A stretch of 60,920 bases of DNA from Actinomycetales bacterium. GTDB taxonomy: Bacteria > Actinomycetota > Actinomycetes > Nanopelagicales > Nanopelagicaceae. The position numbers and the translations under genes were made by a program. The notes under the pieces were generated by a model. That model worked only from the letters and a program-made list of their open reading frames with translations. It had not been told where the DNA came from and did no database searches. The stretch covers positions 1 through 60,920 of the forward strand of contig JAGWYO010000004.1 in the NCBI GenBank assembly GCA_018969355.1, in the 5' to 3' direction. Within the stretch, counting starts at the first letter, position 1, and each line of letters begins with the position of its first letter. This document shows, piece after piece, positions 55,881 to 57,753 of this stretch.

Positions 55881-57596
55881 TTAGCGAATTGCGCGATTTA
55901 TGGCAGACACGACTGCTTTAAGGGATGCCGTAGTGGTGTTGGGATCAATCCCAACGCCCCAGAAGACATCACCATCAATGGCACATTCCAGGTAGGCAGC
56001 TGCCGATGCATCACCACCTGCTGAAAGGGCGTGCTCGTAATAATCTAGAACACGCACATCGACTCCATAGTTTTGCAAGATATTACAAAACGCGGCAATC
56101 GGTCCATTTCCTTGACCTTTAAGTTCTTGGAGTTGACCACGATCTGTCAGTGAAACATTCAAGTGAACATCTTCACCCAGAACAGAGCTCTGACTTAAGC
56201 CCTTGAGGCGAAAGCGTCCCCATGGGGCACTCACAGTTGGCAGATATTCATCTTCGAATACGTTCCATAAATCTTCGGGGCTAATCTCTCCACCTTCGGA
56301 ATCAGTCTTAGTTTGAACGATTTTCGAAAATTCAATCTGCAATCTGCGAGGTAGATCAAGGTGGTGTTCATTCTTCATCAGATATGCAACACCGCCCTTA
56401 CCTGACTGTGAATTCACACGGATAACGGCCTCATAGCTACGGCCAATATCTAATGGATCAATAGGCAAGTAAGGAATGGCCCATGTGTGATCACGAACTT
56501 CTTTGCCGGCAGCCTTTGCATCGCGCTCTAAATGCTCAAAACCTTTTTTAATTGCATCTTGGTGTGAACCAGAAAAGGCAGTAAAGACAAGGTCTCCACC
56601 ATAAGGATGGCGCTCAGGAACGCGTAGTTGATTGGCGTACTCCACTGTGCGGCGCACTTCATCGATATTAGAGAAATCGATGTGTGGATCGATGCCGTGT
56701 GTAACTAAGTTGATTCCAAGTGTCACAAGACAAACATTTCCTGTGCGCTCACCGTTACCAAACAAGGTTCCCTCAATGCGATCGGCTCCTGCTAGATATC
56801 CCAGCTCTGCAGCTGCAACGCCTGTGCCACGATCATTATGTGGGTGGAGTGAGACAATCACGCTGTCACGATTATTTAAGTGTCGACACATCCACTCAAT
56901 GGAGTCGGCATAAACATTGGGTGTTGCCATTTCAACAGTTGCTGGCAAGTTCATGATGGTTTTCCACGCAGGCGTTGGTTTCCACACATCATTGACGGCG
57001 TTACACACCTCAACAGCAAACTCTAACTCTGTACCCGTATAGGACTCAGGTGAGTACTCGAAAGAGACTTTGGTTTCTGGAACCGTTTTGACTAGATCTA
57101 AACAGATTCTGGCAGCATCAGTTGCAATCTTCTTAATGCCATCTTTATCAAGGCCAAAAACAACTCGGCGCTGCAAAGTTGAAGTGGAGTTATAAAGGTG
57201 GACGATTGCTTGCTTAGAGCCCTTGATTGCTTCAAAGGTGCGAATAATGAGCGCCTCGCGTGCCTGAGTCAAAACCTGAATAACAACATCATCTGGGATG
57301 AGGTTCTCTTGAATAATCTTTCGAACAAAATCGAAATCAGTCTGACTAGCACTTGGGAAACCAACTTCGATTTCTTTATATCCCATGGCTACCAAGAGTT
57401 TGAACATCGCTAACTTGCGCGGTGTGTCCATGGGATCGATAAGTGCCTGGTTGCCATCTCGAAGATCCACAGAACACCACTGAGGTGCCTTGGTTATCTT
57501 TTTATTTGGCCAGGTGCGATCAACAAGATCTATTGGGTGGAATGGTTCATAGCGATGCACTGGCATCGATGAAGGTACTTGCTTGGGAAAATTCAT
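55881..57596 (-). CDS. leuA: 2-isopropylmalate synthase
   Basis: First committed enzyme of leucine synthesis. 571 residues, the long actinobacterial form. The catalytic barrel shows [33 protein letters not shown] and FGNGERTGN; the C-terminal leucine-binding regulatory domain follows. The ATG is preceded by AAGGAG at 8 nt. A leucine leader peptide and a hairpin precede it, so its expression is probably controlled by charged tRNA-Leu, on top of feedback inhibition. Confidence 0.97.
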
Positions 57597-57604
57597 TTCT
57601 ATTG

Positions 57605-57611
57605 CTCCTTA
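57605..57611 (-). promoter_or_regulatory. leuA Shine-Dalgarno complementary to leader Leu codons
   Basis: On the minus strand TAAGGAG, 8 nt before leuA. It is the exact reverse complement of CTCCTTA at 57693-57699 inside the leader reading frame (Leu7, Leu8 and the first base of Ser9), allowing a 7-bp pairing that would hide the ribosome-binding site. Confidence 0.5.
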
Positions 57612-57633
57612 TGTGTTTGCGGAATTCGTCTTG

Positions 57634-57672
57634 TAACCGACAGGACAAACCCCGCAGCGTGGGGTTCGGTTA
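57634..57672 (-). promoter_or_regulatory. Hairpin between leucine leader peptide and leuA
   Basis: TAACCGA (57634-57640) pairs with TCGGTTA (57666-57672), enclosing an inner stem ACCCC/GGGGT around 57649-57665. The leader stop codon lies in the base of this stem, so a terminating ribosome would disturb it. No T run follows, so it is not a plain intrinsic terminator. Confidence 0.6.
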
Positions 57673-57717
57673 TTTGACCCCGCCACGGCAGCTAAGGAGG
57701 AGACTGCGTGTGTTCAT
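57670..57717 (-). CDS. Leucine leader peptide of leuA
   Basis: 15-residue reading frame MNTRSLLLSCRGGVK with three consecutive Leu codons CTC CTC CTT. It starts exactly 6 nt after a -10 hexamer and lacks a Shine-Dalgarno, so it is probably translated from the 5' end of the mRNA. It sits 73 nt before leuA. Leucine leader peptides before leuA are known in Actinobacteria. Function: sensing Leu-tRNA supply through ribosome stalling. Confidence 0.82.
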   Translation of the reverse strand: MNTRSLLLSCRGGVK

Positions 57718-57723
57718 GGGTAA

Positions 57724-57753
57724 AGGGTAACGCTCAGGTTAAAGAACTGGCAA
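57724..57753 (-). promoter_or_regulatory. Promoter of the leuA leader
   Basis: On the minus strand -35 TTGCCA (57753-57748, inside the end of glnA), an 18-nt spacer and -10 TACCCT (57729-57724); the leader ATG begins 6 nt later. Confidence 0.65.

Follow-up and report, generated by a model that had tools for sequence, protein, structure and literature searches.

The LEU element before leuA as a probable leucine-sensing translational attenuator

The leuA leader in the window, by which we mean the whole 60,920-nucleotide stretch of DNA analysed here, is a new member of an already known kind of element, the LEU element, and it carries an additional helix specific to its family. We consider this element to be, probably, a leucine-sensing translational attenuator placed before leuA, in which the leucine codons of a short leader peptide also serve as the strand that hides the leuA Shine-Dalgarno (SD). 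Evidence for this comes from covariation between the codons and the SD across families, and from sister copies of the element before leuC and leuB in which the codons change with the gene.

Results

Layout of the leuA leader

The features of the leader, all on the minus strand, are given below in the order of transcription.

57724..57730, minus strand: -10-like motif TTACCCT, read from the sequence, 6 nt 5' of the leader ATG
57670..57717, minus strand: leader ORF MNTRSLLLSCRGGVK followed by a stop, 15 amino acids, from ORF reading; leader frames also occur at other sites
57694..57702, minus strand: sensing codons CTC CTC CTT, from the sequence; at least three Leu in the seven-codon window at 158/163 leuA sites
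57693..57699, minus strand: first anti-SD, CTCCTTA within the Leu codons, exact complement of 57605-57611, with covariation
57678..57688, minus strand: helix A 5' strand CCGTGGCGGGG, within the leader frame, from pairing and two-sided changes in alignments
57666..57672, minus strand: helix B 5' strand TAACCGA, sharing bases with the leader stop, from the sequence and covariation across families
57652..57662, minus strand: helix A 3' strand CCACGCTGCGG, with one G-A mismatch in the window, from alignment and sequence
57644..57656, minus strand: helix D 5' strand TGCGGGGTTTGTC, competing with helix A, from the fold and covariation in the window's family only
57634..57640, minus strand: helix B 3' strand TCGGTTA, in a predicted pseudoknot with helix A, from covariation and sequence
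57618..57630, minus strand: helix D 3' strand GACGAATTCCGCA, from the fold, covariation in the window's family and sequence
57605..57611, minus strand: leuA SD TAAGGAG, from the sequence, 5' of the leuA ATG at 57596
55881..57596, minus strand: leuA, 2-isopropylmalate synthase, 571 amino acids, by Pfam (HMGL-like, IPMS_D2, LeuA_dimer) and NCBIfam (2-isopropylmalate synthase)

A sequence-only reading of this DNA had described a 15-residue frame with CTC CTC CTT before leuA and an exact complementarity between CTCCTTA and the SD TAAGGAG; both are found as described, the frame at 57717-57670 and the complementary strings at 57699-57693 and 57611-57605. The leader codons are ATG AAC ACA CGC AGT CTC CTC CTT AGC TGC CGT GGC GGG GTC AAA TAA, such that CTCCTTA consists of the second and third Leu codons together with the first base of a Ser codon. 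Because the -10-like motif stands only 6 nt before the leader ATG, transcription probably starts at this codon and the leader itself would be leaderless; a scan for the sigma-70 consensus found no promoter. A glutamine synthetase gene (57739-59052, minus strand; Pfam) ends 8 nt upstream of the -10-like motif.

Taken alone, a single match of seven bases is modest evidence: the window contains CTCCTTA 6 times, both strands counted, against 4.84 expected, and by simple arithmetic one strand of a 110-nt leader would hold such a 7-mer with a chance of about 0.4%. The minimum free energy (MFE) fold of the leader is closed by exactly the codon-SD stem (-39.8 kcal/mol), with 5 of 200 shuffled sequences folding equally well or better. 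As the single match carries little weight, relatives were compared.

Distribution and sample of sites

We searched genomes with a covariance model (R1) that describes the core with helix A only and leaves out the SD. Matches were found in 377 of 393 genomes sampled from the class, in 98 of 121 genomes from the window's order, and in 31 of 296 genomes of a phylum sample, 27 of these within the class (the window's genome included) and four outside; the three samples overlap. These counts are lower bounds, since several negative genomes carry a degenerate element that is recognisable by eye (L244, L245, L246, L248 and L249).

For the comparisons we used 211 sites, comprising 200 fetched regions and 11 earlier loci (the window and 10 relatives from the class); other loci of the same genus were not added, L086, on a cut contig, was dropped, and the choice was non-random, as the best-scoring places were taken and second sites were included deliberately. 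Sorting by downstream gene gave 160 leuA, 27 leuB and 12 leuC sites, three with a stretch resembling the LeuA C-terminal domain, and nine unassigned. Among the latter, three are distant leuA-like sites, two were placed with leuB through a shared short ORF (neither fetched stretch showed a leuB gene), three were placed with the LeuA-domain group through likeness of their leaders, and one is the dropped cut contig. The start codons of leuA were picked by SD strength alone. Sites more than 150 nt from the leuA start codon were excluded from the control-window, helix-length, recoding, accessibility and nested-MFE tests, and sites without a located helix A from the helix B and second-strand, accessibility, same-genome and nested-MFE tests.

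Covariation of the leucine codons with the leuA Shine-Dalgarno

The pairing of Leu codons with the leuA SD was stronger within sites than between them. With one site per family (44 families, 163 sites), codon stretches paired with their own SD at -13.05 kcal/mol and with swapped SDs at -11.16 kcal/mol, a difference reached in 1e-5 of permutations, and the longest contiguous helix averaged 6.49 bp for own and 5.80 bp for swapped partners (0.0003 of permutations; 43 families). Five control windows, namely the upstream leader, the 5' strand of helix A, a later leader window, a stretch upstream of the SD and the start of the coding region, were flat in the same test (0.32-0.53 of permutations). 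The covariation among relatives that the sequence-only reading had proposed as a check is thus present across families, and it also appears within the window's order (117 of 20,000 permutations; 40 sites). A chance match of the 7-mer was rejected on these order-level and family-level swap tests, and the family comparison places the codon-SD stem beyond chance.

Individual sites follow the same pattern, as unusual codons meet unusual SDs: CTACTT faces AAGTAG in L060, GCTTCTTCTT faces GAGAAGAAGC in L140, and the codon-SD helix of L027 reaches 14 bp. At least six contiguous codon-SD pairs are present at 116 of 156 leuA sites, and the remaining 40 of 156 are without such a helix. In nested MFE folds of 153 sites, the SD was paired with the codon stretch at 78, with a second stretch (see below) at 12, with another partner at 52 and with none at 11. 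The Leu codons used in the sensing windows are mostly CTC (215) and CTT (207), followed by CTG (66), TTG (9), CTA (4) and TTA (1); the bodies of leuA are by contrast rich in CTG, with CTT accounting for 432 of 5197. When the codons were recoded randomly and synonymously according to leuA usage, pairing fell from -12.03 kcal/mol (natural) to -11.16, and natural codons were better in 26 of 43 families (p = 0.065), a weak result that is at most suggestive; because recoded codons are only slightly worse, the sensing of rare codons may account for part of the Leu-codon bias.

A second partner of the Shine-Dalgarno after the leader stop

A sixth window in the swap test, located just 3' of the leader stop, differs from the five null controls in that it covaries with the SD of leuA. 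This second strand reads GGYCTCCTCG in many families, and its signal is about as strong as that of the codons: 2e-5 of permutations as opposed to 6e-5 for the codons, 0.0006 as opposed to 0.0003 when measured by helix length, and best-window z scores of -3.9 to -6.5 as opposed to -3.5 to -4.7. Matches between second strand and SD include GGTCTCCTCG/CGAGGAGACC in L083 and GGCTCCCTCG/CGAGGGAGCC in L081. The second strand of the window, CGAACCCCACG, forms at best a 5-bp helix, which does not involve the SD core. In the same-genome test described below, the own second strand was better in only 7 of 16 pairs, and no signal was found at near leuB and leuC copies (0.25 of permutations).

Since the second strand overlaps helix A, its pairing with the SD and helix A exclude one another, and the arrangement would match an attenuator based on alternative pairings, the SD being its last segment. 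The proposal of the sequence-only reading that the sensing codons are the anti-SD stands insofar as codons and SD covary; at leuA sites the SD also covaries with the second strand, so that the codons probably share the anti-SD role.

Helices above the base stem

Helix A joins the leader codons that follow the sensing stretch to the strand after the leader stop. In a structure-free alignment of 24 sequences (22 distinct) it is 99.6% paired with two-sided changes in 3 of 11 pairs, and it is 98.9% paired with two-sided changes in 7 of 11 pairs when 95 sequences are aligned by means of the model, a procedure biased towards helix A. L026 and the two sites with insertions were omitted from the model alignment A1. 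For helix B, own partners exceeded swapped ones across families (0.0003 of permutations), with one control null (0.42) and the other, which set A3 against the B3 region, also low (0.025). In the window, helices A and B follow in crossing order and would thus form a predicted pseudoknot above the base stem. The hairpin at 57634-57672 in the sequence-only reading corresponds to helix B (TAACCGA/TCGGTTA), pseudoknotted with helix A.

Helix D covaries in the window's family (-13.8 for own and -11.8 for swapped partners; 0 of 5000 permutations, 41 sites), and its signal is absent in 109 other sites (0.19 of permutations). Helix D and the base stem together make up the MFE structure of the window. 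In three sites (L010, L011 and L058), about 30 nt are inserted 3' of the leader stop and 5' of helix B, with the core retained; by eye, the insertion can form a hairpin in L010 and L011, and the match of L058 is 109 nt long.

Computed accessibility of the Shine-Dalgarno

We computed the accessibility of the SD at 153 sites in folds that take no account of pseudoknots, which lie beyond this computation. A ribosome footprint on the first Leu codon raised accessibility from 0.25 to 0.39 (up in 31 of 43 families, p = 0.0013), also when compared to a ribosome at the stop codon (0.27; p = 0.006). With the footprint on the last Leu codon accessibility was 0.36, which is non-significant by family (p = 0.085 against free RNA and 0.29 against the stop). 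The first-Leu footprint gave no gain in 12 of 43 families, and the change was reversed at some sites, L081 and L027 included. For the window itself, the values were 0.37 for free RNA, 0.43 with a stalled ribosome and 0.05 with a ribosome at the stop, such that the computed gain from stalling is small relative to free RNA and large relative to a ribosome at the stop.

Copies before leuC and leuB

Copies resembling the LEU element were also found before leuC (L105, L137, L141, L173-L175, L223, L225, L226 and L228-L230) and before leuB (L124, L143, L151-L156, L160-L163, L167-L170, L189, L190, L211 and L213-L222), with a single example of each gene type verified in Pfam and NCBIfam. At leuB-type sites the element is followed by a short ORF, then leuB and mostly ilvE, which is present in 24 of the 29 fetched stretches. 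The sensing codons differ between these groups: at least three Leu occur in the seven codons before helix A at 158/163 leuA and 12/12 leuC sites and at 0/29 leuB-type sites, and Ile or Val occurs in the last five codons at 29/29 leuB-type sites compared to 2/12 leuC and 20/163 leuA sites (leuB-type versus leuA, Fisher 1.4e-21, with sites non-independent). In this reading of the codons the leader window of L184 was misread, its match being truncated. A typical leuB-type run is a mixture of Val, Leu and Ile, for example VLVLI; the leader frame is open at these sites and the core is similar to that of leuA copies.

IlvE makes all three branched-chain amino acids, so the identity of the codons follows the product. 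Judged by sequence, the sensing codons correspond to the end product of the genes under control: they are Leu codons before leuA and leuC, and Val/Leu/Ile codons at leuB-type sites. The presence of other branched-chain codons in sister copies suggests that stalled ribosomes do the sensing: a sensor read by ribosomes predicts that codon identity tracks the gene, and a ligand-binding RNA or a protein that reads the fold needs no such match.

Codon-SD pairing extends to leuB and leuC copies at most 165 nt from the gene (0.0017 of permutations, n = 20), and was not found at leuB copies more than 200 nt from the ORF (0.68 of permutations, n = 15); among the 29 leuB-type sites in this test, 8 were near, 15 far and 2 between, and 4 had no assigned start. 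Far leuB copies must therefore act otherwise than by codon-SD pairing, if they act at all. Far leuB-type elements, located 223-390 nt upstream of the ORF and showing no SD pairing as a group, include L151, L153-L155, L189, L214 and L216-L219. Where a genome holds more than one copy, the codons pair better with the SD of their own copy than crosswise in 13 of 16 pairs (p = 0.02; 14 genomes, some pairs being two leuA copies).

Two further observations concern the ORFs beside these elements. A conserved small protein of about 20-50 amino acids, ending like ALQEAMDRRDNGGETGH or LDLRDNGGQRPDDN, lies between the element and leuB at 26 of 29 leuB-type sites and was not found in L152, L213 and L215; the one example searched had no Pfam or NCBIfam match. 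In family f4 (L133, L145, L181, L184, L186 and L227), leaders like LVLVV, ILVV and KLLV precede small ORFs, three of which are weakly similar to the LeuA C-terminal domain, one matching PF08502 just above the cut-off.

Termination signals, known RNA families and loss of the element

The sequence-only reading held that the hairpin at 57634-57672, which has no T run, argues against plain transcription termination. A scan of 57400-57950 agrees with this, as it gave no terminator-like site on the minus (coding) strand and one on the plus strand, and an intrinsic terminator for the leuA leader was accordingly rejected. A known Rfam element was rejected as well: among Rfam families, including T-box, riboswitches and known leaders, the window gives only three tRNAs above the gathering score, and 13 related loci searched at E up to 0.1 gave one miRNA match far below its gathering score. 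Before a distant leuA homologue (L252), the leader MTNLLLT with its stop is followed, by eye, by a hairpin and T6; this leader looks like a classical transcription attenuator.

The element is absent from the 170 nt upstream of leuA at 14 loci of the window's family (L005, L231, L233-L243 and L250); three more leuA loci of this family had no upstream sequence. At six of the element-less loci (L005, L231, L233, L234, L235 and L250), all from the window's genus, a GTTACC(C/G)T motif lies directly 5' of the leuA start. As the -10-like motif of the leader thus stands directly at the leuA start in these six relatives, the element and the SD have been lost together, apparently leaving a leaderless leuA.

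Discussion

The LEU element was named by Seliverstov et al. (2005, BMC Microbiol 5:54; PMC1262725), who found it in most of the Actinobacteria they studied and described a leader peptide with a run of Leu, a pseudoknot, and, at the base, a stem in which leucine codons pair with the leuA SD box. The window shares the Leu-run leader directly before leuA, the codon-SD base stem (7 bp) and the predicted pseudoknot, and its helix D may or may not be the alternative hairpin of 2005. The codon-SD pairing was thus already published, and the sequence-only reading rediscovered it; the mechanism which that reading proposed differs from the 2005 view. Those authors thought attenuation and small-molecule binding unlikely, the former in view of mutants described by Craster et al. 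(1999), and proposed a protein instead (PMC1262725). By their account, mutating the leuA leader of Streptomyces coelicolor produced some effect, at odds with classical attenuation, and they concluded that mutations of the Leu codons are without influence on regulation (PMC1262725). Copies before leuC or leuB, re-specified codons and a second SD partner after the leader stop are not part of the 2005 paper (PMC1262725), and in a search conducted mostly at the level of listings, with thin coverage of subscription literature, we found no published report of this mechanism for leuA or of copies at leuC or leuB.

Other leucine leaders have been described in related bacteria. The LeuL1 leader of Streptomyces lividans, MRFGLLLLSCRGEGL, stands before leuA and is leaderless and without a typical Rho-independent terminator; in the part of the source that covers LeuL1 it is listed as an attenuator with no SD pairing given (PMC8079986). 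At our site L176, the last 15 residues of the frame are identical to this leader. Short leader peptides before leuA have four consecutive Leu codons in Corynebacterium glutamicum and three in Mycobacterium tuberculosis, and in the relevant parts of these sources they are taken as attenuators, both Corynebacterium papers specifying transcription attenuation (PMC4046766, PMC3890552, PMC3526491). In the same set of sources, a Northern blot from M. tuberculosis has leuA leader RNAs of 85, 65 and 45 nt, which could reflect early termination (PMC4046766, PMC3890552, PMC3526491).

From the pairings and the codon-to-gene match found by comparison, we infer the following course of events. With no stalled ribosome, the Leu-codon stretch would pair with the leuA SD and close the structure together with helices A and B, shutting leuA; in the window's family, the closed structure would also hold helix D, in competition with helix A. 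Under a shortage of charged tRNA-Leu, this strand would be covered by a ribosome halted at the Leu codons, which would free the SD for translation of leuA. Many other families would have a second SD partner in the strand 3' of the leader stop; it excludes helix A and would keep the SD shut once ribosomes have run past the sensing codons. A comparable arrangement has reportedly been described by Canestrari et al. in 2020 for polycysteine attenuators at mycobacterial cys operons, leaderless short ORFs in which stalled ribosomes are said to open a structure hiding the downstream ribosome-binding site; that system is said to sense cysteine, unlike the leucine-codon leader of the window.

Several results speak against this course of events: the non-significant gain from a last-Leu footprint, the families with no gain from a first-Leu footprint, the near parity of recoded codons, the leuA sites with no 6-bp codon-SD helix, the 75 of 153 nested folds in which the SD takes another partner or none, the unpaired far leuB copies, the S. 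coelicolor mutants as described in 2005, and the short leader RNAs of M. tuberculosis. Several other explanations need to be weighed as well. The second anti-SD might itself be the switch, working like a classical 2:3/3:4 attenuator at the level of translation, with the codon-SD pairing a side effect of pyrimidine-rich Leu codons; its covariation with the leuA SD, about as strong as that of the codons, speaks for this, yet it fails where the codons succeed, both in the same-genome test (7/16 versus 13/16) and at near leuB and leuC copies (0.25 versus 0.0017), and in the window it is weak, CGAACCCCACG giving a 5-bp helix outside the SD core, so that we consider this unlikely. We hold it distinctly unlikely that a regulatory protein binds the folded element with the leader peptide being incidental, as preferred in 2005 because of the mutated Leu codons and because the phyletic pattern matched that of a helicase-like protein, with ML1624 as candidate (PMC1262725). 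The strong conservation of the core and of helices A and B would fit such a protein, but before leuB the sensing codons become Val/Leu/Ile, with a core that remains similar and an open frame, which a protein reading the fold would not need. The comparison makes a translational attenuator read by ribosomes, with the sensing codons as anti-SD, a likelier mechanism than a binding protein.

A transcription attenuator, in which the stalled ribosome prevents a Rho-dependent or intrinsic terminator from acting in the leader, could draw on the short RNAs upstream of leuA listed for M. tuberculosis in the sources above and on the L252 leader with its hairpin and T6; we regard it as improbable, given that the covarying partner is the SD and that, for the intrinsic type, the coding strand of the window is without a terminator-like site. 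That CU-rich Leu codons simply complement any SD, to no function, is the explanation to which we give very little credence: swapped pairs do pair well (-11.2 kcal/mol) and the recoding test is weak, but own partners beat swapped ones across families and in 13 of 16 same-genome pairs, control windows are null, and unusual codons meet unusual SDs (L060, L140 and L027).

With the ribosome-read translational attenuator as the preferred reading, the LEU element may belong to a group of translational attenuators, within this actinobacterial class, that can be re-targeted, a proposal that we regard as evenly balanced. In such a group a common RNA core would serve leuA and leuC through Leu codons and leuB-ilvE through Val/Leu/Ile codons, the sensing codons would be the anti-SD, the flank of the SD would co-evolve with them, and the second anti-SD would make the leuA copies a full alternative-pairing switch.

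The mechanism of the LEU element has been unsettled since 2005 in the literature examined. If one stretch is indeed both the sensor and the anti-SD, then a change of codons would alter stalling and sequestration together, which could explain the paradoxical results in Streptomyces; the title of the 1999 study by Craster reportedly calls the relation of sequence to phenotype paradoxical. The leuB-type copies with other codons represent a natural experiment that separates the roles of sensor and anti-SD, and in amino acid producers the element might find use as a leucine switch.
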